64,000 nt of DNA from Salinigranum marinum (GTDB taxonomy: Archaea; Halobacteriota; Halobacteria; Halobacteriales; Haloferacaceae): contig NZ_CP100462.1 of NCBI RefSeq assembly GCF_024228675.1, positions 124,001 through 188,000 on the forward strand. Reading direction: 5' to 3'. The notes beneath the pieces are model-generated. The model did not search any database and was not told the origin of the DNA. It saw only the letters and a program-made list of their open reading frames with translations. Both the position numbers and the translations under genes were made by a program. Each line of letters starts with the position of its first letter. Within the stretch, counting starts at the first letter, position 1. Below are positions 2,207-24,161 of this stretch, one piece after another.

Positions 2207-2308
2207 GGTATGTCGTATGTGTTCAGTTCGCATGCCCCCGACGTAAACGTCGGCGTCGGATGCACGAAGACGGCTGGTGCGTGCCGAGGGAGCCGGCCGA
2301 CTCCGACC

Positions 2309-4861: not shown

Positions 4862-7459
4862 CTAAACCAGCGGCTCCTCCTGGACCGTGGCAGCGTAGTG
4901 GTCACCCTCGAACAGCACCTCGACCGACGTGCCGGGCTCGGCGTACTCCGGCGGGAGATACGTGTAGGCGACGCACGCGCCCACCGAGTAGCCGTACTCG
5001 GCGGCGTGGACGTAGCCCAGCGACTCGCCCGTCTCTGGGTCAAGCACCGGTCGGTCGTCGAGAATCGTCGCCTCGGGGTCGTCGAGCGTCAGGCAGGCGA
5101 CCTGGTGGCGAAGCGCCGGCTCACCGCCGTCCGCCGCGGCCGGTTCCGTCTCGGACCCGGCGAGGGCCTCCTTCCCGATGAAGTCGGTGTCCATGTCGAC
5201 CGCCCAGCCGAGGCCGGCCTCGAACGGGGTGTGCTCGGTGTGGAGGTCCTTCCCCCACAGCCGGAACCCCTTCTCGATGCGCAGGGCGTTCAGCGCGCCG
5301 TTGCCGTACGGCCGGATGTCGTACTCCTGGCCGGCCTCCATGATGTGCTCCCAGAGCTGCTCGCCGTACTCGGAGGGGGTGTAGAACTCCCAGCCGAGCT
5401 CGCCGGCGTACGAGACCCGCAGGGCGAGCACCGGGACGTTCTTCACGTAGAACTCCTGGGCGGTGAAGAACGGGAACGCCTCGTCGGAGAGGTCGACGTC
5501 GGTGACCTTCGAGAGCACCTTCCGGGCGTCCGGGCCAGTACAGACCATCGCGGCCATGCTGGAGGTGACGTCGTTGACTACGACGCCCTCGGGGGACTGC
5601 TCGCGGACCCACGCGACGTGGTTGTTCCCGACCTCGCGTCCCGTGGTGAGGAGGAGGTAGCGGTCCTGATCCGTGCGGGTGACCGTGATGTCCGCGCGGA
5701 CGCCGCCGCCCTCGTTGCACATCAGGGTGTACTTCACGTCTCCGACGTCGAGGTCCATGTCGTTCGTACAGAGCCGCTGGACGAACGCCCCTGCCTGAGG
5801 ACCGACCACCTCCATCTTGTTGAAGGGGGTCATGTCGTGCAGTCCGACCTTCTCACGGACGTGCAGCGCCTCGGCCCCCTCGAGGGGCGACCAGTAGATG
5901 CCCTCCCAGCCGTCTCGGTCGGGGATCCGGTCGCCGTACCGCTCCAAGAGGTCCTCGTTCGACTCGAACCACTGGGGGGCCTCCCAGCCGGCTTCGGCCC
6001 ACATCTCCCCGCCCAGTTCCAGGTGGGAGTGGTACATCGGCGTCCGCCGGATGTCCCGCTGTTTGTCCTCCCACACCCACTTCGGATGCATGATGTTGTA
6101 GACGATGCGGTACTCCTCGCCGCCGATGTCGCGGGCGAAGTCCCAGCTACCCTCGTGGTCGTCGAAGCGGTTGACGTCGCAGTGCGCGAGGTCGATGGGC
6201 CCGTCGTCGAGCCGCGGCACGCCGTTCTCCATCCACTCCGCGAGCGCCTTCGCCGCGCCGCCGGCGTGGGTGACCCAGATGGCCGCCGCCGTCCACAGCC
6301 CCTCCAGTTCCTGCACCGGACCCATCACGGGGAGGCCGTTCGGCGACTCCGCGAACATCCCGTTGTACTTGAACTCCAGTTCCTTGCCCGCCGTCGCCGG
6401 GAGGAGTTCGTCGGAGGCCTGCCGGGGCGCTTTGTGCGGGCGGTCGGGGTGGGTCGCGTTCTCCATGTGGTAGTCGGTGAACTCGTGGACCGACCCCTGC
6501 GACTCGTCCGTATTGCCGCCGAGTTCCTGCGGGTCCGGCACGATCGGCTCGTGGTTGTACGAGCCGATGCCGTAGGAGTCGCCGTGGTTCCGGTAGTACA
6601 TGGCGTTGTCCTGGTCGCGCAGGATCGGCCGGTCGGGCCCGACGAGCAGCCGTTTGGCCTTCTCACCCGAGACGTTCTCGTACCCCTCGAAGAGCGGGTG
6701 ATCGGTGACGTCGACCGCGCTGTCGGCCAACTCGCCCAGCGACTCGGTCATCGTGTACTGGTGTTCGACCGGCGTCACCGGGAGGTGGACGCCCAGTTTC
6801 TCGCCCAGCTGGCGGGCCCAGATGTTCGTCGCGATGACGACCTCGTCACACTCGATCGTCCCGTTCTCGGTGACGACCGACTCGACGGAGCCGTCCGCGA
6901 CTTCGACGTCCTCGGTTCGGGTGTGCGGGACGAACGTCGCCCCCCGGTCCATCGCTTCCCGGGCCAGCGCGTCGCAGGCGACGACGCCCGACACCTGCCC
7001 GTCGGTCGGCGAGTAGTACCCACCCAAAATCTGGCTGTCGTCGACGAGCGGGAGGTGCTCCGTGACCTCCTCGGGGCTGAGCAGCTGTGGCTCCGGAATC
7101 CCCCACGCTTTCGCGTGTTCGACCCGGCGCTGGAGGAACGCCATCCGCTCTTCGGAGCGAGCGACCTCGATGCCGCCGGTCTCGTTGTACGCCTGCTGGC
7201 CGTCCGCGCCCTCCAGTTCGGAGTAGAGCTGCCGGGAGTAGTTCGCGAACTTCGAGAGTTCCTTCGGTTCGGCCGTCTGGAACATGATCCCCGGCGCGTG
7301 CGTCGACGACCCGCCCGTCGTCGGCATCGGGCCCTGGTCGACGACGACGACGTCCTCCCGACCCAGCTCTGTCAGCTGATACGCGACGTTGCACCCGACG
7401 ATTCCGGCACCGACGATCACGGTCCCAGCGTCGCTCGGGAGACTACGCTGTGTGCTCAT
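4862..7459 (-). CDS. dimethylglycine/sarcosine dehydrogenase-like flavoprotein with GcvT domain (paralogue A)
   Basis: An 865-residue paralogue of the downstream gene with the same architecture: FAD domain with GAGIVG (17-22) and the covalent-FAD motif GGSSTHAPG (His54), then a GcvT fold (NEGGGVRADITVTR, LGWEFYTPSEYG, RIEKGFRLWGKDLHTEHTPFEAG). The family oxidises an N-methyl group and forms 5,10-methylene-THF. The start is the ATG at 7459 (MSTQRSLP), because a TATA-like element is centred about 29 nt upstream and the FAD motif then sits at the usual distance. A 29-codon upstream extension has no family-like sequence. It differs from paralogue B by an insertion in the C-terminal domain (SETEPAAADGGEPALRHQ). 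It leads the A-B unit. Confidence 0.86.
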   Translation of the reverse strand: MSTQRSLPSDAGTVIVGAGIVGCNVAYQLTELGREDVVVVDQGPMPTTGGSSTHAPGIMFQTAEPKELSKFANYSRQLYSELEGADGQQAYNETGGIEVARSEERMAFLQRRVEHAKAWGIPEPQLLSPEEVTEHLPLVDDSQILGGYYSPTDGQVSGVVACDALAREAMDRGATFVPHTRTEDVEVADGSVESVVTENGTIECDEVVIATNIWARQLGEKLGVHLPVTPVEHQYTMTESLGELADSAVDVTDHPLFEGYENVSGEKAKRLLVGPDRPILRDQDNAMYYRNHGDSYGIGSYNHEPIVPDPQELGGNTDESQGSVHEFTDYHMENATHPDRPHKAPRQASDELLPATAGKELEFKYNGMFAESPNGLPVMGPVQELEGLWTAAAIWVTHAGGAAKALAEWMENGVPRLDDGPIDLAHCDVNRFDDHEGSWDFARDIGGEEYRIVYNIMHPKWVWEDKQRDIRRTPMYHSHLELGGEMWAEAGWEAPQWFESNEDLLERYGDRIPDRDGWEGIYWSPLEGAEALHVREKVGLHDMTPFNKMEVVGPQAGAFVQRLCTNDMDLDVGDVKYTLMCNEGGGVRADITVTRTDQDRYLLLTTGREVGNNHVAWVREQSPEGVVVNDVTSSMAAMVCTGPDARKVLSKVTDVDLSDEAFPFFTAQEFYVKNVPVLALRVSYAGELGWEFYTPSEYGEQLWEHIMEAGQEYDIRPYGNGALNALRIEKGFRLWGKDLHTEHTPFEAGLGWAVDMDTDFIGKEALAGSETEPAAADGGEPALRHQVACLTLDDPEATILDDRPVLDPETGESLGYVHAAEYGYSVGACVAYTYLPPEYAEPGTSVEVLFEGDHYAATVQEEPLV

Positions 7460-7481
7460 ATGACAAAAACCACGGCGGCGG

Positions 7482-7493
7482 CTTCTTATATCC
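7482..7493 (-). promoter_or_regulatory. TATA box of the demethylase operon (leaderless)
   Basis: On the minus strand the sequence reads GGATATAAGAAG, centred about 29 nt upstream of the ATG at 7459. That spacing puts the transcription start at or next to the start codon, as in haloarchaeal leaderless transcripts. A second AT-rich element (GGTTAAAAATACCC, about 7510-7523) lies further upstream. Confidence 0.6.
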
Positions 7494-7573
7494 ACTCCTG
7501 CGCAGTGACGGGTATTTTTAACCGGCTCCGGAGGGCGGCCGATCACCCCCCACCCGCACCGAGACGGAGCGGG

Positions 7574-10063
7574 TTACTCCGGCCCCGTCCGCGTCGTCTG
7601 TTCGGCGGTGGCGACGGCGGCGACGTTCTCCGGAACGTCGTGGACGCGGACGACGTCGACGCCGCGTTCGGCCGCCAGCGCCGTCGCGGCCACCGTCGGC
7701 GCGAGTCGGGCATCAGGGCCGCAGCCGACGTGTTCGAACATCGACTTGTGCGAGTGTCCGAGCATGACGGGTGTCCCGAGCGCCCGGAACTCGTCGAGTC
7801 GGTCCAGGAGTTCGAAGCTCTCGGGGGCGCGCTTTCCGAAACCCAGGCCGGGGTCGACGAGGAGGTCGGAGCGGTCGATGCCCGCCCGCTCGGCCAAAAG
7901 CACGCGCTCGGTGAGCGTCTCCAACACGTCGTCGACGACGTCGTCGTAGTCGTAGCCGCGGTCGGGGTCGACCGGGGCCGAGAGGCTGTGCATCACCACC
8001 GCCGGCACCCCGTGGTCGGCGACGACGCGACGCATCGCCGCGTCCGCGAGCCCGGTGACGTCATTCACCATGTCCGCGCCGGCGGCGAGCGCCGCGTCGG
8101 CGACCGCCGGCTTCCGCGTGTCGACCGAGACCATCGCGTCGAGATCGTCCAGGCGTTCGATCACCGGGCGGACGCGCTCGGTCTCCTCCGCCACCGAGAC
8201 CGGGTCGGCACCCGGCCGTGTCGACTCGCCGCCGACGTCGACGATCGCCGCACCCGCGGCGGCCATCTCCTCGGCCCGCGCGACGGCCGCGTCGACCGCG
8301 TCGTACTCGCCGCCGTCGTGGAAGGAGTCCGGCGTGACGTTGAGGATGCCCATCACGGCCGTGCCGTCGTTCCAGGGATACGCGGAGGGCTCCCCGCTGC
8401 CGACGCCGAGCGCTCGGTTCAGCTGCCCCGCGAGGTGTCGGCTCGCCCCCGACCGTCGGCGGAGGCGGCGGACCAGGTCGCGGAACTGCTCGCGCGTGCC
8501 GCTCACGACGACCGCGACGTGTTCGTCCGCGGTCGTGATGCCCGAGACCGCACACCACCCGCCCGCCGAGCGCATCGTCTCGTTCAGTTCGGCCGCCTCC
8601 GCGCGCCGGACGCGGAGCCTGATCGTCCGGTGGACCAGCCGGTCGGCGCACTCGCGGCGCGGACGCGCGGGGACGTCGGCGCGCGAGAGGACCGACCGGG
8701 CGCGTTCGGTCGAAGGGGTCCGAACGGGCGTCGGCGTCCGCGTCCAGCGGTCACGGGCCTCCGAGACCGTGTACAGCGAGCCCGTCACGAGCACGCAGTC
8801 CGTCGGGTTCGCGGTCCGGAGCGCCTCGTCTACGGCGGCCAGCACCGACTCGCACTGGTCGGTTCGCGCCGCGGTCTCGCGGTCGAACACGGCCGCCAGC
8901 GTCTCCGCGGACTGTGCGCGGCCGACGGCCGGTTCGGCGAGCACCGCCCGGTCGGCGGCCGGAAGCGACCGGCACATGGCGACGTGGTCCTTGTCGCGCA
9001 TCGCGCCGAAGACGAGGTGGAGCTCGTCGTAGTCGTAGCGGTCGAGCACCGTCGCGAGCTTCTCGCAGGCGTCGGGGTTGTGAGCCCCGTCGAGCACCAC
9101 CAGCGGCTCCCGCGACAGCACCTCGAACCGGCCGGGCCAGTGGACGTTCCGGACGCCGGCCGCGATCGCTCGCTCCGTCACCCCGACGTCGAGCGTCGCC
9201 CCGACCTGCCGCGCGAGGGTGGCGGCGACGCCTGCGTTGAGCGCCTGGTGTGTGCCGAGCAGCGGCGTCGTGGTCTGGACCGCCCAGTCCGGGCCGGCCA
9301 GCGAGACGGACGACTCCGCGATCGAGACCATCTCCGTCTCTCGGACCCGGACGTCGGGTCGCTCCCCGCCCCGGCGGTCGGCCGGCGCGTCCGTCTCTGG
9401 GGCCGCCTCGTCGTCGATGCCGACGGTCACGACGTCGGTCCGCTCGCGGATCGTCTCCAGCGCCGCGCCGGTCGCGCCGGTGACCAGCGGCGCGTCGGCG
9501 GGCGCGACGTGGGCCTTGTCGCTCGCGATCTCCTCGACGGTCGACCCCAGGATGTCGGTGTGTTCGAGGCTGACGCTCGTGACGGCCGCGGCGATCGGGT
9601 CGACGACGCTCGTCGCGTCGTAGCGCCCGCCGATCCCCACCTCGAGGACGGCGACGTCGACCTCCTCGCGCGCGAAGTGCCACAGCGCCAGCGCCGTGAA
9701 CGCCTCGAAGAACGTGGGCGCGTCGCCGTCGACCGAGCGGTCGACGATCGACGGCCAGGTCTCCTCGACGAACCGGACGACCTCCCGCTTGGGGATCTTC
9801 TGTCCCCGCACCTGCACGCGCTCGCGGAGGTCGTTCAGGTCGGGCGAGGTGTAGAGTCCGACGTCGAGCCCCGCCTCCCGCAACACGCGTTCGAGCAACC
9901 GTGCCGTGCTTCCCTTGCCGTTCGAGCCGGCCACCTGGACGGCGGTCAACTGCTCGTGTGGGTTCCCCACCTCCGACAGCAGGGAGGCGGTCGTCTCCGT
10001 GCCCAGTTTGGGCCGGAGTCGGCGGAGCCGTTCCAGCCTGTTCACCGCCTCGTGATACTCCAT
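7574..10063 (-). CDS. folCP: bifunctional folylpolyglutamate/dihydrofolate synthase - dihydropteroate synthase fusion
   Basis: An 829-residue fusion of two folate-biosynthesis enzymes. Residues 1-~420 are a Mur-ligase-type FolC domain: P-loop GSNGKGST (46-53), ligase motif LEVGIGGRYDATSVVDP, and DGAHNPDAC. Residues ~565-829 are FolP: GILNVTPDSFHDGG, VDVGGESTRPGA and VSVDTRKPAVADAAL are the pterin- and pABA-binding signatures. A ~140-residue Arg-rich middle section joins them. Such FolC-FolP fusions are known from haloarchaea, which use folates rather than methanopterin. I chose the ATG at 10063 (MEYHEAVNRLERL), where FolC proteins normally begin; the upstream extension is low-quality Arg/Pro sequence. 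It probably supplies the THF used by the surrounding C1 genes. Confidence 0.92.
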   Translation of the reverse strand: MEYHEAVNRLERLRRLRPKLGTETTASLLSEVGNPHEQLTAVQVAGSNGKGSTARLLERVLREAGLDVGLYTSPDLNDLRERVQVRGQKIPKREVVRFVEETWPSIVDRSVDGDAPTFFEAFTALALWHFAREEVDVAVLEVGIGGRYDATSVVDPIAAAVTSVSLEHTDILGSTVEEIASDKAHVAPADAPLVTGATGAALETIRERTDVVTVGIDDEAAPETDAPADRRGGERPDVRVRETEMVSIAESSVSLAGPDWAVQTTTPLLGTHQALNAGVAATLARQVGATLDVGVTERAIAAGVRNVHWPGRFEVLSREPLVVLDGAHNPDACEKLATVLDRYDYDELHLVFGAMRDKDHVAMCRSLPAADRAVLAEPAVGRAQSAETLAAVFDRETAARTDQCESVLAAVDEALRTANPTDCVLVTGSLYTVSEARDRWTRTPTPVRTPSTERARSVLSRADVPARPRRECADRLVHRTIRLRVRRAEAAELNETMRSAGGWCAVSGITTADEHVAVVVSGTREQFRDLVRRLRRRSGASRHLAGQLNRALGVGSGEPSAYPWNDGTAVMGILNVTPDSFHDGGEYDAVDAAVARAEEMAAAGAAIVDVGGESTRPGADPVSVAEETERVRPVIERLDDLDAMVSVDTRKPAVADAALAAGADMVNDVTGLADAAMRRVVADHGVPAVVMHSLSAPVDPDRGYDYDDVVDDVLETLTERVLLAERAGIDRSDLLVDPGLGFGKRAPESFELLDRLDEFRALGTPVMLGHSHKSMFEHVGCGPDARLAPTVAATALAAERGVDVVRVHDVPENVAAVATAEQTTRTGPE

Positions 10064-10432
10064 GCCAAGCGGTGTTCGGGTGACCACAAATAAAACTCCG
10101 CCCGGCGTCGGCCCGCCTCGGCACACCCCGGGGCGGCGAGCACGCGACCGCCGTGCCGTCCACGTGCGGGGTCGACGCCGGGGCGAACGGGCCGCGCCGG
10201 GACGGGAGGCGCTCGGGACAACTCCACAACACAATACGTATCTGATACGATGTGGTTCAGCGCGCGGAGCGAACGGACGGTCGGGCGAGGGGTCTCCGAG
10301 CCGCAGCCCGCGGAGACGCCGATTTGGCCCACGAGACGGCGGTTCCGGCCCGACCCACGGAAACCACGTCGTATCCGGAATCAGAGGAGTGTGCTAACAT
10401 TGATACCGGCGTCACCGAAACTCCGGTCCGAG
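10064..10432. other. 369-bp divergent promoter region folCP / fhs
   Basis: No gene is seen. An open frame continuous with fhs runs back to about 10250, but its Arg/Pro-rich sequence and lack of similarity to formate-THF ligase argue that it is untranslated. The only AT-rich patch (10226-10250) contains a perfect palindrome described separately. Confidence 0.5.
10237..10249. promoter_or_regulatory. 13-bp perfect palindrome between folCP and fhs
   Basis: CGTATCTGATACG reads the same on both strands apart from the central base. It lies in the only AT-rich part of the divergent intergenic region, about 185 bp from each start codon, and resembles a dimeric-regulator operator. Function is inferred. 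Confidence 0.4.
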
Positions 10433-12151
10433 ATGACAGTCGAAGACGAGGGTGAGCCGTCAGTACCGACCGATTACGAGATCGCACAGTCCGTCGAGAA
10501 GCGACACATCGGCGACGTCGTCGAGCCGTTCGGCCTCGAACGTGAGGACCTCGAACTGTTCGGCGAGCACAAAGCCAAGGTGAAGCTCGAGGCGATCGAG
10601 CGGATCAAACAGGAGAAGGAGGCCAACGGGAAGCTCGTGCTCGTCACCGGGATGACGCCCACACCGATGGGCGAGGGCAAGACGGTGACGACCGTCGGGC
10701 TGGGGCAGGCGTTCAACCAGCTGGGGAAGGACGCGCTCATCGCCGTCCGCGAGCCGTCGCTCGGGCCGGTGTTCGGCGTCAAGGGCGGGGCCGCCGGTGG
10801 GGGGTACTCGCAGGTGCTGCCGATGGAGGACATCAACCTCCACTTCACCGGTGACCTCCACGCGCTCACCTCGGCGCACAACCTGATCTCGACGATGCTG
10901 GACAACCACATCAAACAGGGCAACGAACTCGACGTGGCGGTCAACTGGGTCGAGTGGCCCCGCGCCATCGACATGAACGACCGCGTCCTCCGCGAGACCG
11001 TGATCGGTCTCGGCGGCGACGTCACCGGCGTCCCGCGCGAGGACGGCTTCATCCTCACGGCCGCGTCGGAGCTGATGGCCGTCCTGTGTCTCGCCGACAG
11101 CCTCGCGGACCTGAAAGAGCGCGTCGCCCGGATCATCGTCGCCTACGACGAGGCGGGCGACCCGATCACGGTCGACGACATTGACGCGACGGGCGCGGTG
11201 ACCATCCTCCTCAGGGAGGCGCTGAAGCCGAACGTCGTCCAGACCATCGAGGGGACCCCCGCGTTCGTCCACGGCGGTCCGTTCGCCAACATCGCCCACG
11301 GCACCAACTCGCTCATCGCCGACGACGTCGCCAGCCACCTCTCGGAGTATCTCGTCACCGAGGCCGGCTTCGGCTCCGACCTCGGCGCGGAGAAGTTCAT
11401 GAACATCGTCTGCCGGTTCGGCGAGATGTCGCCCGACGCGGTCACGCTCGTGTCGAGCGTCAGGGCGCTGAAATACCACGGCCAGGACATGTGGCCGCCG
11501 GATCTCGACGAACTCGAAGCCGAGGACGTCGACGCCGTCGAGCGAGGGTTCGAGAACCTCGACAAACACGTCCGGAACCTCCAGAAGTTCGGCGTCCCGG
11601 TCGTCGTCGCGGTCAACCGCTTCCCCGGGGACACCGACGCCGAGATCGAGGCCGTCGTCGACCACTGCGAGAACGAGCTGGGGGTTCGCGTCGCCGAGTC
11701 GAACCTCTTCCGCCACGGCGGCGAGGGCGGGCTCGACCTCGCCGAACAGCTCGTCGACGCCGCCGAGTCCGACTCGGAGTTCGAGCACCTGTACGACCTC
11801 GAGGGCTCGATCAAGGAGAAGATCGAGACGGTCGCGACCGAGATCTACGGCGCGGACGGCGTGACGTACCACGGCGACGCCGAGGACGACATCGAGCGCC
11901 TCACCGGGCTGGGATTCGACGACGTGCCCGTCTGCATGTCGAAGACGTTCCACTCGCTCAGCGACGACCCGAGCCTCAAGGGCGCGCCCGAGGACTGGAC
12001 GCTCGAGGTCAAGGAGGTGTACCCGTCGGCCGGCGCGGGCTTCCTCGTCGCGCTCACCGGTGACGTGCTGACGCTCCCCGGCCTCCCGAAGGAGCCGGCG
12101 GCGGCCAACATGGACATCGACGACGACGGCACCATCTCCGGGCTGTTCTGA
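10433..12151 (+). CDS. fhs: formate-tetrahydrofolate ligase
   Basis: A 572-residue formyl-THF synthetase. It interconverts formate + THF + ATP with 10-formyl-THF + ADP + Pi and is reversible, so it can recover ATP when methyl groups are oxidised to formate. The nucleotide-binding signature TPTPMGEGKTVTTVG (about 74-88) and REPSLGPVFGVKGGAAGGG, ITATGA-like and RFGEMSPDAVTLV segments are diagnostic, and length matches the family (about 557). The ATG at 10433 (MTVEDEGE) gives a normal N-terminus. It is divergent from folCP and precedes folD and metF on this stretch, which places it in the C1 oxidation block. Confidence 0.96.
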   Translation: MTVEDEGEPSVPTDYEIAQSVEKRHIGDVVEPFGLEREDLELFGEHKAKVKLEAIERIKQEKEANGKLVLVTGMTPTPMGEGKTVTTVGLGQAFNQLGKDALIAVREPSLGPVFGVKGGAAGGGYSQVLPMEDINLHFTGDLHALTSAHNLISTMLDNHIKQGNELDVAVNWVEWPRAIDMNDRVLRETVIGLGGDVTGVPREDGFILTAASELMAVLCLADSLADLKERVARIIVAYDEAGDPITVDDIDATGAVTILLREALKPNVVQTIEGTPAFVHGGPFANIAHGTNSLIADDVASHLSEYLVTEAGFGSDLGAEKFMNIVCRFGEMSPDAVTLVSSVRALKYHGQDMWPPDLDELEAEDVDAVERGFENLDKHVRNLQKFGVPVVVAVNRFPGDTDAEIEAVVDHCENELGVRVAESNLFRHGGEGGLDLAEQLVDAAESDSEFEHLYDLEGSIKEKIETVATEIYGADGVTYHGDAEDDIERLTGLGFDDVPVCMSKTFHSLSDDPSLKGAPEDWTLEVKEVYPSAGAGFLVALTGDVLTLPGLPKEPAAANMDIDDDGTISGLF

Positions 12152-12542: not shown

Positions 12543-13436
12543 TCAGGGCAACTCGACCGGGACCGACTCCTGGATGCTCGCGGCCTTGACCGTGTTGTAC
12601 AGCAGCATGGTGATCGTCATGGGGCCGACGCCGCCGGGGACGGGCGTGATGACGCCCGCCTTCTCCTTCGCGGAGTCGAAGTCGACGTCACCGACCAGTT
12701 CGTACCCCTTCTCGTTGTCGGCGTCCACGCGGTTGACGCCGACATCGATGACGGTCGCCCCCTCCTTGATCATCGAGCCGTCCACGAGGCCGGGATAGCC
12801 CGTCGCGGCGATGACGATGTCGGCCGCCCGGGTCTTCTCGGCGAGGTCCTGCGTCCGGGAGTGACAGACGGTCGTCGTCGCGTTGCCGCCCGGCGCTTTC
12901 TGGATGAGCAGGTTCGCCATCGGTTTGCCGACGATGTCGGAGCGGCCGACGACGACCGCGTCCTTCCCCTCGGGATCGACCTCGGCCGCCTCCAGGAGCT
13001 TCTGGACGCCGTGAGGCGTGCAGGGTTTGAACCGGGCGTCGCCAGCGACGAGTCGCCCGACGTTCTCGGGGTGGAAGCCGTCGACGTCCTTGACGGGGTC
13101 GATGCTCCGCAGGATCGCGCGGGAGTCGACGTGGTCGGGGACGGGCATCTGCACGAGGATGCCGTGGACGTCGTCGCGGCCGTTCAACGTCTCGACCGCG
13201 TCGAACAGCTCGTCGGCTGGCGCGTCGGGGTCGATTTCCTGATGGACGCTCTCGATGCCGAGGTCCTCGCAGGCGCGGCCCTTCATCGAGACGTACGTCT
13301 CGCTCGCGGGGTCGTCGCTCATCAACACCGTGGCGAGCCCCGGCGTCACGCCCGCGTCGGCGAGCGTCTCGATGCTCCCGCGGAGTTCCGCCCTGATCCG
13401 GTCGCCGACCGCGTTGCCGTCGAGGACGTGCGTCAC
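12543..13436 (-). CDS. folD: methylene-THF dehydrogenase / methenyl-THF cyclohydrolase
   Basis: A 297-residue bifunctional FolD that interconverts 5,10-methylene-THF and 10-formyl-THF via the methenyl form with NAD(P). The catalytic lysine is in TYVSMKGRACEDLGI, the active-site motif is ILVQMPVPDHVD followed by IDPVKDVDGFHPENVG, the Rossmann segment is VVVGRSDIVGKPMANLL, and the C-terminal PVPGGVGPMT is intact. It starts with GTG (MTHVLDGNAVGDRI). It links methylene-THF made by the demethylases to Fhs. A second FolD lies at 17991-18890. Confidence 0.96.
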   Translation of the reverse strand: MTHVLDGNAVGDRIRAELRGSIETLADAGVTPGLATVLMSDDPASETYVSMKGRACEDLGIESVHQEIDPDAPADELFDAVETLNGRDDVHGILVQMPVPDHVDSRAILRSIDPVKDVDGFHPENVGRLVAGDARFKPCTPHGVQKLLEAAEVDPEGKDAVVVGRSDIVGKPMANLLIQKAPGGNATTTVCHSRTQDLAEKTRAADIVIAATGYPGLVDGSMIKEGATVIDVGVNRVDADNEKGYELVGDVDFDSAKEKAGVITPVPGGVGPMTITMLLYNTVKAASIQESVPVELP

Positions 13437-13714: not shown

Positions 13715-15103
13715 ATGTCACAGAACGAAGGGCAAGTGTCCGAGCAGGAGCATCCGAACTACCCGAGCGTCGACCAGTCGGACCGGGTCGTACCCCGGAA
13801 CCTCCGACAGTCGGGGGACCCGGGGATCGAGATGCTCGTCTCGACGCGCGTCCGCAAGTCGCCGTTCTTCCACAAGTCGTTCAACGAGAACGGCGCCTGG
13901 CGCTGTACAGTCTACAACCGACTCTACCACCCGCGGGGACTCGTCGAACCAGAGGACGGCGGAGCGATGGCCGAGTACGAGGCGCTGACGAACAGCGTCA
14001 CCATCTGGGACGTAGCCGTCGAGCGCCAGATCCGTGTGAAGGGCCCCGACGCCGAGGCGCTCACGAACTACGTCATCACCCGCGACGCGACGCAGATCGA
14101 GCCGATGCACGGCAAGTATGTCATCCTCTGTAACGAGGACGGCGGCGTCCTGAACGACCCGGTGCTCCTGCGTCCCGAGGAAGACGAGTTCTGGTTCTCT
14201 ATCTCCGACTCCACGCTGATGCAGTGGCTCCAGGGCGTCAACGTCGGCATGGACTTCGACGTCGAGATCGACGAGATCGACGTCGCGCCGATGCAGATCC
14301 AGGGCCCGCTCGCGGAGGACGTCATGGTCGACGTCGTCGGCGACGAGGTCTCGGACATCCCCTACTACGGCCTGATGGACGCCGAGATCGACGGCGTCGA
14401 CGTGCTGATCAGCCAGACCGGCTTCTCCGGCGAGAAGGGCTACGAGGTCTACGTCAAGGACGCCTCGAAGTACGCCGAGCGCGTCTGGGACCCGGTCCAC
14501 GACTCCGTCGTCGAGCACGGCGGGATGCAGATCGCGCCCGGTCACCACCGCCGGATCGCCGCCGGCATCATGTCCTGGGGCCAGGACCTCGACCACGAGA
14601 CCTCGCCGTTCCAGGTCAACCTCGGCTACCAGGTGCCCGACGACAAGGAGGCGGACTACATCGGCAAGGAGGAACTCGAGCGCCAGAAGGAACTGATCGA
14701 AGGTGGCGAGTACCCGTTCAACCTGAAGCTGGTCGGCCTGAAGATGGCCGGCGAGCCGATCCGGGACTACGCCAACGACTTCTACCTCATCTCCGACCCC
14801 GAGACCGGCGAGGAGTGCGGCTACCTCACGTCGCCGTGGTGGAACCCTGAACTCGAAACGAACATCGGGATGGGCTTCGTCCCGGCCGAGATGCTGGAGG
14901 CCGAGACGGACGTCCCCCTGAACGACGAGATCTACGACGTCGAACTCGATCTGGAGTTCGGGGTTCACCTTCCCGATGAGTACGCCGAGGAGCCCGGCGA
15001 GCCGGTGTTCGCCACCACGGCGAAGGTGCCGTTCAAGGAGTCGGTGAACCCGAGCGCCCGCGAGCAGGCGAAGCTCAACGCCCGCGAGGAAGCCGACGAG
15101 TAG
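13715..15103 (+). CDS. DmdA-like THF-dependent methyltransferase (GcvT family)
   Basis: A 462-residue aminomethyltransferase-fold protein. Its core resembles DMSP demethylase (DmdA): RVRKSPFFHKSF, VYNRLYHPRG, NSVTIWDVAVERQIRV, LNDPVLLRPEEDEFWFSISDS, TGFSGEKGYEVY. DmdA moves a methyl from dimethylsulfoniopropionate to THF, giving 5-methyl-THF. It is longer than typical DmdA (about 370) by an N-terminal ~45 residues and a C-terminal acidic tail. A MetF-like reductase follows 140 bp downstream on the same strand, the expected next step for 5-methyl-THF. The substrate could be DMSP, glycine betaine or another methylated compound; sequence does not decide. It is not the glycine-cleavage T protein, since no gcvP/H are near. 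Confidence 0.8.
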   Translation: MSQNEGQVSEQEHPNYPSVDQSDRVVPRNLRQSGDPGIEMLVSTRVRKSPFFHKSFNENGAWRCTVYNRLYHPRGLVEPEDGGAMAEYEALTNSVTIWDVAVERQIRVKGPDAEALTNYVITRDATQIEPMHGKYVILCNEDGGVLNDPVLLRPEEDEFWFSISDSTLMQWLQGVNVGMDFDVEIDEIDVAPMQIQGPLAEDVMVDVVGDEVSDIPYYGLMDAEIDGVDVLISQTGFSGEKGYEVYVKDASKYAERVWDPVHDSVVEHGGMQIAPGHHRRIAAGIMSWGQDLDHETSPFQVNLGYQVPDDKEADYIGKEELERQKELIEGGEYPFNLKLVGLKMAGEPIRDYANDFYLISDPETGEECGYLTSPWWNPELETNIGMGFVPAEMLEAETDVPLNDEIYDVELDLEFGVHLPDEYAEEPGEPVFATTAKVPFKESVNPSAREQAKLNAREEADE

Positions 15104-15243
15104 TCGGCGAACGGTCCCGGCGGGCCGTCCGACCGAGGTTATAAAAACCGCAGGTAGCTGGACGCCATCGTCTTTAGGCCGGACCTGTTAACATCACATA
15201 CTGGCCGACGGCACGGCGGCACCCGGGCGGTCTTTACCCAATC

Positions 15244-16104
15244 ATGTCACTCACATCACCTTCGAAGCGGACGACAGCGGGAGTACAGCGACTGCTGGCG
15301 GAGCCGAAGTTCGAGCTGATGCCGTTCGACAGCTTCGGCGACCAGATGAGCCACCTGCCGGACGGCGCGGAGATCGCGATCACCGCCTCGCCGAGCCTGG
15401 GCATCGACGCGACCGTCGAGTGGACCGAGAAGGCCGCAGCGGAGGGGTACGAGATCGTCCCTCACGTCGCCGCCCGCTACATCGAGGGCGAGGAACACCT
15501 CGACGAGATCGCCCGACGGATCACCGACGCGGGCGTGACGAGCATCTTCGTCCCCGGCGGCGAACGCGAGGAGCCGGCGGGGCCGTACGAGTCGGCGTAC
15601 GACCTCCTGGTGGCGCTCGACGAACTCGGCTACGAGTTCGACAGAGTCGGCATCACCGGCTACCCCGAGGGCCACCACTTCGTCGACGACGAGACGATGG
15701 CGGAGGCGATGGAGAAGAAAGCGCCGTACGCCGACTACATCGTCACCCAGATCTGCTACAACCCCGACGCCGTCATCGAGTGGATCGAGGAGATCCGCGC
15801 CCGCGGGATCGAGCTCCCGGTCGAGGTCGGCATCCCCGGCGTCATGAAGTACCAGCGCCTGTTGAGCATCTCCCAGAAGGTTGGCGTCGGTGACTCCCTC
15901 GGCTTCCTCCGGAAGACGACCGGTGTGGTCGACTTCGTCCGCCAGCTCGTCGGCTCGCGCGGCAAGTACACGCCCGACAAGCTCATCGACGGCCTCGCGC
16001 CGTACACCGACGACCCCGACTACGGGATCCAGGGCGTCCACATCTACACCTTCAACCAGGTGCCCGACACGGAGTCGTGGCGCCGCGAGCGGCTGGCCGA
16101 GTAA
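15244..16104 (+). CDS. methylene-THF reductase-like protein (MetF family)
   Basis: A 286-residue TIM-barrel protein of the MetF family (FAD-dependent interconversion of 5-methyl- and 5,10-methylene-THF). Supporting segments are IVPHVAARYIEGEEHLDEIARRI, SIFVPGGEREEPAGPYESAYDLL, ITGYPEGH, DYIVTQICYNPDAV, and the C-terminal GIQGVHIYTFNQVPDTESW, matching the family's PGVHFYTLN end. Following the DmdA-like gene, it could run in the oxidative direction to turn 5-methyl-THF into methylene-THF for FolD and Fhs. A biosynthetic (methionine) role is the alternative. Confidence 0.86.
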   Translation: MSLTSPSKRTTAGVQRLLAEPKFELMPFDSFGDQMSHLPDGAEIAITASPSLGIDATVEWTEKAAAEGYEIVPHVAARYIEGEEHLDEIARRITDAGVTSIFVPGGEREEPAGPYESAYDLLVALDELGYEFDRVGITGYPEGHHFVDDETMAEAMEKKAPYADYIVTQICYNPDAVIEWIEEIRARGIELPVEVGIPGVMKYQRLLSISQKVGVGDSLGFLRKTTGVVDFVRQLVGSRGKYTPDKLIDGLAPYTDDPDYGIQGVHIYTFNQVPDTESWRRERLAE

Positions 16105-17837: not shown

Positions 17838-17990
17838 GTCGGTGCTCCCTGGACGAGCAGCCGTCGGGACGTGGATCCGGACGACCGTGACGACGTGCAG
17901 GGACATGATTCGGGCCCCGATCGAACGGTCGACTCCCCGACCCGTCGAGCCGGGCTGAAGCTACAAGTCGGTGGCGGACGAACCCCGGAC

Positions 17991-18890
17991 GTGACAGCGA
18001 AACCGCTTCACGGCGAACCGGTCGCCACGGCGATCCGCGCGGACGTGCGCGACCGACTCGCCCGCCTGCGTGACGAGCACGGGCGGGTCCCGACGCTCGG
18101 AACGGTGCTCGTGAGCGACGACCCGGCCGACGAGCGGTTCATGGACCTGAAACACGCCGCCTGCGACGAGGTGGGCATCGAAACGCGCGACCGGCGGCTC
18201 GCTCCCGACGCGGCCGCCGAGGAGTTGTATCGGGCGGTCGAGCGGCTCTCGGAGGCGGCGAGCGTGGACGCCGTGTTCGTCCAGACGCCGCTCCCCCCGA
18301 CGGTGCCGGCGGTCGGCGTCGGGACGCGGATCGATCCCCGAAAGGACGTCGACTGTTTCCACCCCGAGAACCGCGGACGACTTGTCGCCGGCGAGCCGCG
18401 GTTCGTCCCCGCGACGACCGCCGCCGTCCGGCGGTTGTTGGCGGCGTACGACCTCGAGACCGCGGGGCGTGACGTCGTCGTCGTCGGACGGTCCCCCACG
18501 ATCGGAACGCCGCTGGCGAACCGGCTGTTCCAGCGGGCGGGCGGGAACGCCACGGTGACCGTCTGTCACTCGCACACGAATGATCTCGGCACGAAGACCC
18601 GCCGGGCGGACGTCGTCGTGGCCGCCTGCGGCGTGCCGGAACTCGTCGACGGCTCGATGCTCTCGCCGGGGGTCGTGGTCGTCGACGTGAGCGCCAACAG
18701 GCGACGTGGAGCGACGGGGACGGAGACCGTCGGCGACGTCGACTACGATTCCGCGCAGGAGACAGCAGCGGCCGTCACGCCGGTTCCGGGGGGCGTCGGA
18801 CCGGTGACGGTCGCCGCGCTCCTCGACAACGTCGTTCTGGCGGCCGAACGGCGGTCGGACGGCGACGACCGGGGAACTGGTAGACGCTGA
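17991..18890 (+). CDS. folD: second FolD-like methylene-THF dehydrogenase/cyclohydrolase
   Basis: A 299-residue FolD paralogue with all key elements: catalytic lysine in RFMDLKHAACDEVGI, VFVQTPLPPTVP, IDPRKDVDCFHPENRG, VVVVGRSPTIGTPLANRLF, and PVPGGVGPVTVAAL. It starts best at the GTG at 17991 (VTAKPLHGEPVATAIR), where FolD proteins normally begin; a GTG at 17871 would add 40 residues of unconvincing sequence. It is clearly diverged from the FolD at 12543, so one may be specialised for catabolic C1 flow or for a different cofactor. It converges with pabA. Confidence 0.9.
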   Translation: MTAKPLHGEPVATAIRADVRDRLARLRDEHGRVPTLGTVLVSDDPADERFMDLKHAACDEVGIETRDRRLAPDAAAEELYRAVERLSEAASVDAVFVQTPLPPTVPAVGVGTRIDPRKDVDCFHPENRGRLVAGEPRFVPATTAAVRRLLAAYDLETAGRDVVVVGRSPTIGTPLANRLFQRAGGNATVTVCHSHTNDLGTKTRRADVVVAACGVPELVDGSMLSPGVVVVDVSANRRRGATGTETVGDVDYDSAQETAAAVTPVPGGVGPVTVAALLDNVVLAAERRSDGDDRGTGRR

Positions 18891-18911: not shown

Positions 18912-19514
18912 CTACGAGCCGTCGGCGCAGTCGCGGACGAACGTCTCGACCATCCCCATCCCCACGTCCGTGAGGATGCTCTCGGGGTGGAACTGGACGC
19001 CCTCGTGGGGGCGGTCGCGGTGGCGGACGCCCATGACGACCTCGCGCTCGTCGTCCGTGCGGGCCGTCTCGACGAGACAGTCGGGGAGGTCGCCGCGTTC
19101 GACCGCCAGCGAGTGGTAGCGTCCCGCCTCGAACGAGTCGGGGAGTGCCTCGAACACCCCGGAACCGTCGTGTCTGATGGTGGAGGGCTTGCCGTGGACC
19201 ACGTCGGGGGCGTGGCCGACGGGCGCGCCGTTGGCCGCACAGAGCGCCTGGTGGCCGAGACACACCCCGAGGGTCGGGTACGACAGGTCGCGGAAGACGG
19301 GGATCGAGACGCCCGCCTCGGCGGGCGTGCCGGGACCGGGCGAGACGACGATGCCGTCGGGGTCCAGCGCCCGGATGTCGGCGACGTCGACCGCGTCGTT
19401 GCGGCGGACGATCACGTCGCCGTCGTCGGGGGCACCGACGGCCGCGCCGACGTACTGGACGAGGTTGTACGCGAACGAGTCGTAGTTGTCGACGACCAGG
19501 ATACGAGGAGACAT
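18912..19514 (-). CDS. pabA: aminodeoxychorismate/anthranilate synthase glutaminase subunit
   Basis: A 200-residue class-I glutamine amidotransferase that supplies ammonia to its partner. The catalytic triad is visible: Cys85 in GVCLGHQAL and His/Glu in QFHPESI; NYDSFAYNL and SPGPGTP are the other signatures. Its ATG overlaps the stop of the upstream synthase gene by one base (TGATG), so the two are translationally coupled. The family does not separate PabA from TrpG by sequence. I assign PabA because the neighbours are folate genes and no other trp genes are present. Confidence 0.75.
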   Translation of the reverse strand: MSPRILVVDNYDSFAYNLVQYVGAAVGAPDDGDVIVRRNDAVDVADIRALDPDGIVVSPGPGTPAEAGVSIPVFRDLSYPTLGVCLGHQALCAANGAPVGHAPDVVHGKPSTIRHDGSGVFEALPDSFEAGRYHSLAVERGDLPDCLVETARTDDEREVVMGVRHRDRPHEGVQFHPESILTDVGMGMVETFVRDCADGS

Positions 19515-21073
19515 CAGTCGGCCACCCCCGCGTCCTCGACGGCGAGGTCGGTCCGTTCACCGAGCGCCTCGTCCAGCGCCGTCACCAGCGCGCGGCCCTT
19601 GTCGAGGGTCTCGGCGTACTCGCGGTCCGGCACCGAGTCGTGGACGATCCCCGCGCCCACCCGTAAGAAGTACTCCTCGCGGTGGCGGACGAGCGTCCGG
19701 ATGACGATGTTGAGCGTGGCGCGTCCGTCGAAGCCGAACGCGGCGATCGAGCCGGTGTAGGGGCCTCTCCGCGTGGCTTCCACCTCGTCGATGATCTCCA
19801 TCGTCCGTGGTTTGGGGGCTCCGGTGATGGTGCCGCCCGGGAAGACGGCGGCGACGGCGTCGGCCACGTCGTGCTCGGGCCGGAGCCGACCCTCGACGAG
19901 CGAGACGAGATGCATCACCTCCGAGTAACGGTCGACGCGGCGGTACTCCGGCACGTCGACGCTGCCGTACTGGCTCACTTTCCCGAGGTCGTTCCGTTCG
20001 AGATCGACCAGCATGGCGTGTTCGGCGCGCTCCTTCTCGTCGCTCAGGAGTTCGTCCGCCAACTCGGCGTCCTCTTCGGGCGTTGCCCCGCGGGGGCGGG
20101 TACCGGCGATGGGTTCGGTCAGGAGCCGGCCGCCCTCGCCCTCGACGTCCAAGAGGAGTTCGGGCGAGGCGCTCACCAGATCCACCCCGGGGAACTCGAC
20201 GAGCGCCGAGTACGGGGCGGGGTTCACCCGTCGGAGGGCGGCGAACGCCTCAACCGGGTGGACCGCGGCCGGGGCGCGCAGCCGCTGGGAGACGTTCGCC
20301 TGGAACGTGTCGCCGTCGCGGATGTACTCCTTGACGCGGCGGACCCGGTCGGCGAATGCGGCCGGCGAGCAGTCGCTTTCGAACGTGGCGGTGCCGGCGC
20401 GGACCGGCGGCGCACCGACCGCCGGATCGCCGGTCGTGGCCGCACGGGCGAGCGCGAGCGCCCGGTCGCGACCCCGGTCGTACGCCGCTGCGGGGTCGTC
20501 ACCGACGCGGGGGCAGGCCGTCACCCGGAGCGTCGTCTCGCCGTCGCGCGGCTCCTCCCAGGCTGCGACGCGATCGAAGACGCCCAACTGGAGGCGGGGA
20601 AGCCCGCGGTCGTCGACGGTCGTCTCGGGGAGCCGCTCCAGTTCGCGCGCCACGTCGTACGAGAGCCAGCCGAACGCGCCGCACGGATACGGCACGTCAC
20701 AGTCCCCCCGGACGAGCGTCTCCCCGGCGAGGAGTCCCGCCAGCTCCGCGAGCGAGGGCGACGGCTCGGCGTCCCCGACCGCTTCGAGGGTCGCCCCGAC
20801 CTGGAGCCGGCTGATCGGGTCGACTGCGAAGTAGCCCCAGCCAGACTGCCCGCCGGTGGTTTCGAGGTAGACGCCGTCCGAGCCCGGGGCGCGGCGTGTG
20901 GGCGACGGCTTCCCGTCGGCGTCGGCGCCGGGGCCGGTGCGGGCACGGCGGTAGGCGAGGAACGGGTCGGTGACGGTGACGCGGACTTCGACGGGGACGC
21001 GCGCGGCCGGGTCGGCGTCGCGGGCGGCCTCGACGAAGCTCGATTCGGTCGTGACGATGCGTGGTTGGTCCAT
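19514..21073 (-). CDS. pabB: aminodeoxychorismate synthase component I (PabB), TrpE-like
   Basis: A 519-residue chorismate-utilising enzyme that, with the downstream glutaminase, makes 4-amino-4-deoxychorismate for p-aminobenzoate and folate. The C-terminal chorismate-binding domain is complete: [73 protein letters not shown]. The start is the ATG at 21073 ([13 protein letters not shown]); an upstream extension is not family-like. PIAGT is the TrpE-type form, so anthranilate synthase is not excluded. No lyase (PabC) gene is adjacent in the window. Confidence 0.72.
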
Positions 21074-21214
21074 CGATGTGGTTCCCTCGGGGTCCAGCAG
21101 ATCGGCTGGATGACACCGGAGATTGTGTGGAGAGTGATTAAAACGTTTCGTGGGTGTATCGCGCCACATCGCGCGACTGCAACGGTGTACGGCCGGATCG
21201 ACGGCTCCGGAGGG

Positions 21215-21225
21215 GTATATAAAAA
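21215..21225 (+). promoter_or_regulatory. TATA box upstream of the 21289 gene
   Basis: GTATATAAAAA is a strong haloarchaeal TATA element preceded by a purine-rich stretch (GGAGGG). It is about 69 nt before the ATG at 21289, so the transcript probably has a ~40-nt leader. Confidence 0.55.
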
Positions 21226-21288
21226 CAGCCGTCATTAAGCATACAGTTTGATGACGGTCAGAGACGTTTACCCGCAGTAACACGGGCC

Positions 21289-22467
21289 ATGACAGTCGGG
21301 AGCGCACTCCAGGAGTTGGGCCGAGTCCTCGACGAGTTCGACCGGGCGGCGGTCCGGAACGTGGGGGTCGTCGAGCCGGCCGAGGCGGACGGGGCGAGGG
21401 GAGTGACAGCGGACGTCGAACTGACCGTGTCGACGCAGCCGGACGCCGAGGGAGGGGCCGAGCCGGTTTCGCTCGCCACGGCGACCGTCGAGGCCGACGG
21501 GCAGCTCCGGCTCGCGTTCGAGTCGGCGGACGCGCTCGTCCCGACGACTGACCGCGACGTGACGATCGAGCCCACCGCCGTCGCCGTCGACGACGGGGCG
21601 ATCACCGTCGCCCTCTCCGTCTCAGTCCCCGTCCGGAGCGACGCCGGCCCGGCGGACGGCGAGCGACCGGTCCCGGCGGGCGAACCCGACGACTGGGACG
21701 GTGCTGATGGGGGACGCGGCGACGGGAACGGGCGTCACGGCGACGACGGCCTCGGGGGGCGCGACGGCAGAGTAGAGCGTGACAGCGGAGCAGAGCGTGA
21801 CGGCGGAGCAGACACGGACAGCCACGGGAAGCGCGGCGGGGGCGACCGGTCGGTGCCCCCGTTCAGGGATCCCGAACTCCTCGCGGAGGTGTACGACTCC
21901 TGCGGCACGTTCGCCGAGATGGCCGACACGCTGGGGATGGACGTGACGGCCGAGACGGTCAGACGCTACATGATCGACGCCGGCGTCCACCAGCCGAACT
22001 CGTACGACACGAAGGGAAACGCGGGCGGACCGACGGCCGACGGAGACGAGGACGGGGGGACGGAGGAGCGGGAGAACACCGAACGCGACGGGGGAGTCGA
22101 CTCCGACGCGGGGACGGAGGCGGAGGTGACGCCGGAGCCGGAGGGTGGGCCGGCGACGGCGGACGGGAGTGAACCCGAGGACGAACCCGGTACCGACGCC
22201 GGGGCCTCGGAACCGGTCGTCCTCGCGGACGGCATCGGCCTCCCCAACGACGTCACCGTCGAGACGCTCGTCGAGACGGTGAAACGGTCGAACACCGTCT
22301 ACGAGATCAAGCGCGACATCGGCGTCGACCGGGAGGACGCGGTCGAGATGCTCCGGGAGCTCAATCTGCTCGACCTCGTCGTGGGGCGACTCGCCACCGA
22401 GGCCGAACGCGACATCAGCCGCGCCGAGGTCGTCGAGCGGCTCCGTGAGGCCTCCGCCACGCAGTGA
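21289..22467 (+). CDS. two-HTH haloarchaeal protein with acidic linker, possible regulator
   Basis: A 392-residue protein. The N-terminal ~105 residues are a beta-rich domain with alternating hydrophobics. A D/G/R-rich low-complexity linker follows (about 115-185). A helix-turn-helix-like segment comes next ([43 protein letters not shown], about 188-230), then a second acidic linker. The C-terminal segment [40 protein letters not shown] again looks like a winged-helix element. No function is known to me; two HTH-like units suggest DNA binding. It is divergent from pabB. Confidence 0.7.
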
Positions 22468-22509: not shown

Positions 22510-23247
22510 CTACTTGTGTGCCGGACGCGACGTGTCACGGTCGGCGACCACACCGAGGAGATCAGCGAGCGCCGTCGCCGCGAGGTCGAGCAGTTCGGCC
22601 CCCCACTCCTCGCTGGCCGCGGTCGGGTCGCCGACGGTGCCGTTGTCGGTGAACTCGGCGGAGTCGAACGCGAGGTTCGTGTGGTGGAGCCACTCGCCCC
22701 AGCCGTCGCTCCCGCCGTCGCGGGCGGCTTCGAGGCGATCGGTGGCGACCAGGTCGGGGTGAGTGGCCAGGAGGAGCGACGTCTCCAGCGGGCCGCCGTG
22801 GCCCATCTCGGAGGCGTGCTCGCCGACCGCGTCGAACCAGGTGAACGGCACCGCGTACGCGTCGTCGTGGCGAGTGATCGTGCCGGCGACCTCGCGGAGG
22901 GCGTCGATGTTCCCGCCGTGGCCGTTGACGAGGACGACCCGGTCGAAACCGTGGTGTGCCAGGCTGTGCACCACGTCGCGGACGTACGCGCGGAAGTTCG
23001 CTTCCGTGACCCAGAGCGTGCCGGTGAACTGGCGGTGTTCCTCGGCGACGCCGACGGGGACCGCCGGTGCGACGACCACCTCGTGCCCACACCGGTTCGC
23101 GCCGGCGTCGGCCACGGCCCGGGCGGTGAGCGTGTCGGTTCCGAGCGGTCCGTGCGGCCCGTGCTGTTCGGTGCTCCCCACGGGCACGACCGCCAGCTCG
23201 GTGTCTGCGGCGTCGGCGTCGGTCCACGAACTGTGAGCCAGTCGCAT
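22510..23247 (-). CDS. creatininase-family amidohydrolase
   Basis: A 245-residue metal-dependent amidohydrolase of the creatininase superfamily. The metal-site motifs are present: VGSTEQHGPHGPLGTDT (Glu/His/Asp), VLVNGHGGN and EMGHGGPLETS. The superfamily includes creatinine amidohydrolase, ArfB (formylamino-pyrimidine deformylase of archaeal flavin/F420 synthesis) and MftE-type peptidases. In archaea the ArfB-like role is the most common assignment. A creatinine route to sarcosine would suit the nearby sarcosine-type dehydrogenases but is only speculation. The start is the ATG at 23247 (MRLAHSSW). Confidence 0.82.
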   Translation of the reverse strand: MRLAHSSWTDADAADTELAVVPVGSTEQHGPHGPLGTDTLTARAVADAGANRCGHEVVVAPAVPVGVAEEHRQFTGTLWVTEANFRAYVRDVVHSLAHHGFDRVVLVNGHGGNIDALREVAGTITRHDDAYAVPFTWFDAVGEHASEMGHGGPLETSLLLATHPDLVATDRLEAARDGGSDGWGEWLHHTNLAFDSAEFTDNGTVGDPTAASEEWGAELLDLAATALADLLGVVADRDTSRPAHK

Positions 23248-23498
23248 ACCGGACCGTACGGACAGCACGGGTATAGCTGGTGGGGAACCGGAGCACGGCG
23301 TCCGGGTCCGGCGGTCAGAGCGCGAGCACACGAACCCGCCGAGACGGTCGACACGGGTCGCGAACAGGGTCGGCTGCTAGCAGCTACCGAACCCCTTAAC
23401 ACCGTCCCATCCCGCCTGTTATCCATGTACACGTTCACGAACGAGAGAGTCGAGGTGTGGGCGGACGGACGCTCGCGCCATCGCCGGTACGAGAAGCG

Positions 23499-24161
23499 AT
23501 GACCCTCATCGCCGTCGTGGAGATCGAACACTCGGCCCTCGCGCTCGGGCCGACAATCCGGGACCTCCCCGAGGCGTCGATCCAGGTCATCCCGAACAGC
23601 GGGACCGACCCCGACACGGGGATGTTCTTCTTCATGGTCGAACACGCCGACGACGACTTCGAGGCGGTCGAAGCACGGTTCGACAGCGACCCGACCGTCG
23701 AGGAGTGGACACGGATCGCGGACGACGAAACGACGAACATCTACCGGCTCCAGCACACCCCGGAGACGAAGCTGCTGACGCCGGAGGCGACGAAGGTCGG
23801 CGGGTTCACCCTGGAGGCGAAGAGCACCGGCCACGGCTGGCGGATCCGCCTCCAGTTGCCCGATCGCGAGGCGATCTCGAAGCTGTGGGACTACTGCCGC
23901 GAGGAGGGCATCTCCTTCGAGTTGGCCCAGATGTACCAGCAGGAGGGGATCTCACTGGACGGGAAGCCGCTGACCGAGCCGCAACGAACGACGCTGTTGA
24001 CGGCGTACGAACGGGGGTACTTCGACGAGCCGCGCGGGACCTCACACAAGGAGATCGCCGAACTGCTCGACATCTCCCCGACCGCCGTCGGGGGGCGGAT
24101 CAGACGGGGGACCGCCCGGCTCATCGAGATCGTGCTCGCCGACGACATCGAGGGGAAGTAA
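23499..24161 (+). CDS. HTH-10 (Bat-type) transcriptional regulator
   Basis: A 220-residue regulator. The C-terminal ~55 residues are an HTH-10 domain (LTEPQRTTLLTAYERGYFDEPRGTSHKEIAELLDISPTAVGGRIRRGTARLI). The N-terminal ~150 residues are the sensor-like region usual in this haloarchaeal family (EIEHSALALGPTI...; TGHGWRIRLQLPDREAISKLWDYCREEGISFELAQMY). Family members act as DNA-binding activators; the signal is unknown. The ATG at 23499 is chosen because homologues begin M-x-L-x-AVVEIEHS. A hydrophobic G/P-poor 14-residue upstream extension is not needed. Confidence 0.88.
   Translation: MTLIAVVEIEHSALALGPTIRDLPEASIQVIPNSGTDPDTGMFFFMVEHADDDFEAVEARFDSDPTVEEWTRIADDETTNIYRLQHTPETKLLTPEATKVGGFTLEAKSTGHGWRIRLQLPDREAISKLWDYCREEGISFELAQMYQQEGISLDGKPLTEPQRTTLLTAYERGYFDEPRGTSHKEIAELLDISPTAVGGRIRRGTARLIEIVLADDIEGK

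Follow-up and report, generated by a model that had tools for sequence, protein, structure and literature searches.

A DmdA-like protein of 462 residues (P0001), encoded beside a divergent MetF (P0002) in a haloarchaeal gene island, is proposed to be a tetrahydrofolate (THF)-dependent glycine betaine demethylase that would transfer the methyl group directly, without oxygen or cobalamin, a reading to which we assign a probability of roughly 0.76. Glycine betaine is one of the major osmolytes of brines and seawater, and the known ways of removing its first methyl group depend on an oxygenase, on homocysteine as acceptor or on a corrinoid system. The DNA analysed (the window, 64,000 nucleotides) lies within a 437-kb contig (C2), one of the 4 that make up a haloarchaeal genome of 4.9 Mb. 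A first-pass annotation had left the choice between glycine betaine and DMSP as the substrate; betaine is now strongly favoured by the gene neighbourhood, the complementary occurrence with a GbcA-like gene, the tracking by MetF, a BetI-MetF fusion and a separate near-DmdA protein in SAR86.

The DmdA-like protein and its family

Both open reading frames of the DmdA-like/MetF pair named in the first-pass annotation are present, one after the other on the forward strand (Table 1), and the DmdA-core motifs it listed were located in P0001 at residues 45-52 (RVRKSPFF), 97-105 (IWDVAVERQ), 146-152 (LNDPVLL) and 235-244 (TGFSGEKGYE), within a protein carrying the Pfam domains GCV_T (137.6 bits) and GCV_T_C (28.3 bits). 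The N- and C-terminal extensions described there also proved real, both being conserved and the N-terminal one strongly so, with the pattern NHPSVDQSDRxVPRNLRQ and an AlphaFold2 pLDDT below 50. Residues 1-44 (window 13715-13850) are strongly conserved from SAR86 to haloarchaea and predicted to be disordered; this tail is possibly a lid, docking or oligomer segment.

By sequence, the best solved relative of P0001 was DmdA (3tfh, E 5e-42), with GcvT behind (1e-36). The top NCBIfam model was likewise that of DmdA (NF009133, 239 bits), the cut-off of which (410) was missed by P0001 and also by its chromosomal paralogue (241.7) and a SAR86 member (266.3). The score against the GcvT model TIGR00528 (137.6 bits) stayed under the cut-off of 235.85, and the curated LigM and DesA models gave 31.4 and 43.9 bits against cut-offs of 580 and 800. 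The AlphaFold2 model (mean pLDDT 82.5) showed the three-domain GcvT fold, matching DmdA 3tfh with Z 40.0 and an rmsd of 2.2 over 360 residues and GcvT with Z 39.4, a tie that makes the fold comparison non-discriminating, while the match to LigM/DesA was weaker (Z about 25).

In a tree of 48 proteins, GcvT and the GCV_T domains of the oxidases formed one side (100/100), and opposite them stood two groups, DmdA together with its close homologues (96/91) and the P0001 family (92/84), the latter a separate sister clade drawn from haloarchaea, SAR86 and other gammaproteobacteria. The phylogeny called for at first pass thus placed P0001 outside both GcvT and the domains of the dimethylglycine oxidases; for heterotetrameric sarcosine oxidase the comparison was one of scores alone. 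Within the family, the haloarchaeal sequences are one clade among several gammaproteobacterial lineages including SAR86, to whose members P0001 is 62-68% identical, and haloarchaea may plausibly have received the gene from bacteria.

Residues Asp96, Glu195 and Arg231 of GcvT (Thermotoga numbering) correspond to D148, E244 and R280 of P0001 and are conserved. The position of DmdA W197 is occupied by F237, with Phe in every aligned family member and Trp or Tyr in the DmdA-side sequences. A Trp numbered W171 in a published alignment, which we equated with DmdA W197 via the motif that follows it, was called key for DMSP, and a 'non-DmdA' group including haloarchaea has Phe there (PMC7487153). Three identities were rejected: DmdA, as the main reading, by its score (239 of 410 bits), the Phe in place of the key Trp, the sister-clade position and the near-DmdA protein that occurs alongside in SAR86; GcvT by score and tree; and the LigM/DesA O-demethylases, considered on account of the metF and fhs neighbours, by score.

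The gene island and a proposed pathway

Profile matches bear out that the genes adjoining P0001 are N-methylglycine and C1-folate genes (Table 1). Immediately outside the left end of the window are genes for GlyA (serine hydroxymethyltransferase; NF000586 588 bits, cut-off 335) and BCCT-family transporters. Across haloarchaea, genes for dimethylglycine-oxidase-like proteins, MetF, FolD, Fhs, GlyA, BCCT and IlvA recur near the P0001-type gene and tie it to the uptake of betaine and the breakdown of dimethylglycine. With these proposed functions, the island is complete in itself, covering the import and demethylation of betaine, the oxidation of C1-folates and the provision of folate. The family match of Fhs begins well inside the reading frame, and its true start is therefore probably downstream. 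PabA, PabB and the FolC-FolP fusion lie within the island as if a catabolic plasmid brought its own folate supply.

Table 1. Features of the island within the window (positions in window numbering)
Feature	Position	Strand	Proposed role	Evidence
IlvA-type threonine/serine ammonia-lyase	965..2233	-	serine to pyruvate	TIGR01127 451 bits, cut-off 379; recurs in 23 loci
Dimethylglycine-oxidase-like protein 2	2309..4861	-		same domain order as protein 1, about 52% identical to it
Dimethylglycine-oxidase-like protein 1 (DAO + FAO_M + GCV_T + GCV_T_C)	4862..7546	-	dimethylglycine/sarcosine oxidation	profile matches
FolC-FolP fusion	7574..10234	-	folate synthesis	TIGR01499 312 and TIGR01496 288 bits, both over cut-off; match from residue 81
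Formate-THF ligase Fhs	10250..12151	+		NF010030 823 bits, cut-off 652; match from residue 72
FolD, methylene-THF dehydrogenase/cyclohydrolase	12543..13436	-		NF010764 548 bits, cut-off 477
DmdA-like GcvT-fold protein (P0001), 462 aa	13715..15103	+	glycine betaine:tetrahydrofolate methyltransferase	sequence matches, tree, model, fold match
Divergent MetF (P0002; methylene-THF reductase family), 286 aa	15244..16104	+	5-methyl-THF oxidation	PF02219 45.7 bits, cut-off 24; TIGR00676 55.6 bits, cut-off 293.7; co-occurs with the DmdA-like gene in 27/28 genomes
Second, divergent FolD	17871..18890	+		NF010764 348 bits, under cut-off 477; both Pfam domains over cut-off
PabA/TrpG glutamine amidotransferase	18912..19514	-	PabB partner	TIGR00566 201.6 bits, cut-off 121
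PabB, aminodeoxychorismate synthase component I	19514..21307	-	folate synthesis	TIGR01824 424 bits, cut-off 408.55
Creatininase-family protein	22510-23331	-		PF02633 234 bits; same island; recurs in few other haloarchaeal loci
BAT/HTH_10 family regulator	23457..24161	+		PF04967 and PF15915 over cut-off; such regulators beside the gene in 38 loci, many haloarchaea

In the proposed pathway, BCCT transporters would import betaine, and P0001 would convert glycine betaine and THF to dimethylglycine and 5-methyl-THF by direct transfer as in DmdA. MetF would then run in the oxidative direction, from 5-methyl-THF to 5,10-methylene-THF, and the two dimethylglycine-oxidase-like proteins would take dimethylglycine via sarcosine to glycine, yielding two methylene-THF. 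GlyA would combine glycine with one C1 unit to give serine, which would leave the route as pyruvate through the IlvA-type lyase, and FolD and Fhs would oxidise the remaining C1 units with a gain of ATP, on folate supplied by the island's PabA, PabB and FolC-FolP.

Co-occurrence and displacement among haloarchaea

Among 391 genomes of the class, the P0001 family was found in 98 and dimethylglycine oxidase, scored at E <= 1e-150, in 128, with both in 84; the oxidase thus accompanies 84/98 carriers (Fisher p 1.5e-37, kinship between genomes ignored). Twelve of the 14 carriers lacking it have a divergent oxidase, 37-41% identical, mostly 12-25 kb from the gene. The 128 oxidase genomes were split between two candidate betaine demethylases that replace each other, 60 having the P0001 family only, 43 a GbcA-like Rieske gene only, 24 both and 1 neither (p 1.5e-15, kinship again ignored). 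Counted per genus, 22 had the P0001 family only and 10 the Rieske gene only; in an eleventh Rieske genus (g68) the gene is present in three genomes and one genome has neither gene. Two genera (g65 and g69) contain both solutions, each in different species, and such repeated within-genus switches make shared descent alone an unlikely cause of the pattern. The haloarchaeal Rieske protein is only GbcA-like (143 bits, cut-off 670), and since its function is itself inferred, the displaced step rests on another inferred step.

Two Rieske-only islands (L207 and L208) comprise BCCT, IlvA-type lyase, both oxidase, PabA/PabB and Rieske genes, and MetF was not found there within the 20 kb read. A P0002-type MetF was present in 27/28 of the carriers tested (of 98), in 3/43 Rieske-only genomes and in 0/9 genomes with neither gene. 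A GbcA-type enzyme releases formaldehyde and so has no need for MetF, whereas a methyltransferase to THF would need it; the association of MetF with the P0001 family and not with the oxygenase is therefore what would be expected if the P0001-type enzyme, rather than the oxygenase, makes 5-methyl-THF. The single carrier lacking MetF (G323) has only the paralogue described below.

In two bacterial loci (L175:7723-9252 and L176:8083-9612), a single open reading frame joins an N-terminal BetI-type TetR repressor to a C-terminal MetF. This fusion of MetF with BetI, a choline-responsive repressor, lies directly upstream of distant bacterial relatives of P0001, and its BetI part was confirmed in L175 (NF001978 132 bits, cut-off 118).

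Alternative routes, the chromosomal paralogue and bacterial relatives

Family searches of the window's own genome gave no match to MTTB (corrinoid betaine methyltransferase) or to S-methyl_trans (betaine-homocysteine methyltransferase). Its sole GbcA-like Rieske gene (G000 C1, L209:8815-10216) retains the CxH and CxxH cluster motifs, but it is without residues 1-103 and directly adjoins a TnpB fragment, and is therefore probably inactive.

A chromosomal paralogue 70% identical to P0001 (G000 C1:1131045-1132400; L005; L180:9542-10909) belongs to a second group marked by the co-ordinated changes W62H, R63E, P149F, H277G, W288L and W375G, at positions that vary little or not at all among the other haloarchaeal and SAR86 sequences. 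In the loci read, this group had no adjacent MetF and mostly shared only a BAT/HTH_10-type regulator as neighbour. The paralogue may act on another substrate; an ABC transporter beside it (L180) was dropped as a substrate hint, not being conserved in other genomes. The same-genus genome G323 has only the second-group type and contains neither MetF nor dimethylglycine oxidase.

SAR86 genomes encode a P0001-type protein and a separate near-DmdA protein (342-395 bits), the side-by-side presence of which argues for two substrates. In three SAR86 loci (L083, L085 and L086) the oxidase-like, P0001-type, near-DmdA and MetF genes are neighbours, and in three others (L060, L066 and L078) a BCCT gene and an oxidase-like gene precede the P0001-type gene, although in most of the SAR86 loci examined neither MetF nor the oxidase lies next to it. 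A further gammaproteobacterial locus (L174, G620 C22:1-18690) holds a P0001 relative together with a GbcA-like Rieske protein, a dimethylglycine-oxidase-like protein, a BCCT transporter and two enolase-superfamily-like enzymes, of which the one scanned is hydroxyproline-dehydratase-like; the locus possibly serves hydroxyproline betaine catabolism.

Weighing other substrates and reactions

DmdA being the closest solved and curated relative, P0001 might be a genuine DMSP demethylase that converts DMSP and THF to methylmercaptopropionate and 5-methyl-THF; MetF pairing would suit any methyl donor, and BCCT transporters are able to carry DMSP. We consider this improbable, because the DmdA model is missed by a wide gap in bits, the protein falls in the sister clade, SAR86 has its own near-DmdA, the neighbours and the complementary occurrence indicate N-methylglycines, and Phe stands in all aligned relatives where Trp is key for DMSP (PMC7487153). 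It is very improbable that P0001 is a T-protein-like or stand-alone C1 transferase that takes an aminomethyl or imine compound produced by the neighbouring oxidases and forms 5,10-methylene-THF: the fold is the same and the structural match to GcvT ties with that to DmdA, but the oxidases already bear their own GCV_T domain, MetF tracking implies a product at the methyl level, and the tree groups P0001 with the DmdA type, at a distance from GcvT and from the domains of the oxidases.

A THF-dependent demethylase of some other betaine or N-methyl compound (proline or hydroxyproline betaine, dimethylglycine or carnitine), with glycine betaine at most a side substrate, would be consistent with the many quaternary amines present in brines and with the L174 relative, which sits with the hydroxyproline-dehydratase-like enzyme and the GbcA-like Rieske protein. 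We regard it as unlikely, since the dimethylglycine-oxidase-like, GlyA and IlvA-type genes of the haloarchaeal islands fit a glycine-forming route and the GbcA-like islands have the same downstream genes. Against glycine betaine itself as the donor stand the 24 genomes that hold both P0001-family and Rieske genes, the MetF score far under its NCBIfam cut-off and the many SAR86 loci with neither MetF nor the oxidase adjacent, together with reports that Haloquadratum walsbyi grew no better with betaine and that H. utahensis was unable to grow on it (PMC3102087). Glycine betaine nevertheless remains our preferred substrate, and we lean towards a broader view in which the sister clade of DmdA in haloarchaea and SAR86 would be a betaine-specialised, cobalamin-free and O2-independent quaternary-ammonium:THF methyltransferase, with the haloarchaeal paralogue acting on a further substrate.

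Significance and comparison with known systems

A 2011 comparison of ten haloarchaeal genomes drew attention to the joint presence of BCCT transporters and dimethylglycine-oxidase genes without settling whether betaine is used (PMC3102087). If our proposal is true, a single folate enzyme would explain how betaine catabolism starts in many of the haloarchaea with dimethylglycine oxidase, a question standing since that study; it would also give SAR86, abundant marine bacteria, a betaine route, and DmdA-like genes that marine surveys take to encode DMSP demethylases may be something else. For SAR11, a GcvT-like protein encoded next to betaine transporters (SAR11_1303) had been suggested to have a role in betaine metabolism, and another beside metF to remove, possibly, a second methyl in DMSP degradation (PMC3160333). 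Neither that work nor the study of the 'non-DmdA' homologues (PMC7487153) gave the P0001 family a reaction, and we found no published account of one in the open-licence literature.

P0001 shares with DmdA (3tfh; NF009133) the GcvT fold, the catalytic-type Asp, the folate-side residues, the Asn-Asp motif LNDP and presumably 5-methyl-THF as product, and differs in the replacement of W197 by Phe, the long conserved N- and C-terminal extensions, the sister-clade position and the pairing with dimethylglycine oxidase. LigM and DesA, which also carry out GcvT-related THF-dependent methyl transfer, act on aromatic substrates, score only 31-44 bits and match the fold less well; LigM genes are also found with metF and formyl-THF ligase. 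The Rieske-type glycine betaine monooxygenase GbcAB has the same proposed step, from betaine to dimethylglycine, and a GbcA-like gene takes the same place in islands elsewhere, but its fold is unrelated, it needs O2, it releases formaldehyde and it has no MetF partner. The cobalamin-dependent MtgBCD/MtgA system and BHMT achieve the same demethylation with other folds and cofactors, passing the methyl group via a corrinoid protein to THF or to homocysteine (PMC12478193). The net conversion of betaine and THF to dimethylglycine and methyl-THF is thus already known via corrinoid proteins in anaerobes (PMC12478193), and the new element we propose is a single enzyme that would carry it out directly.
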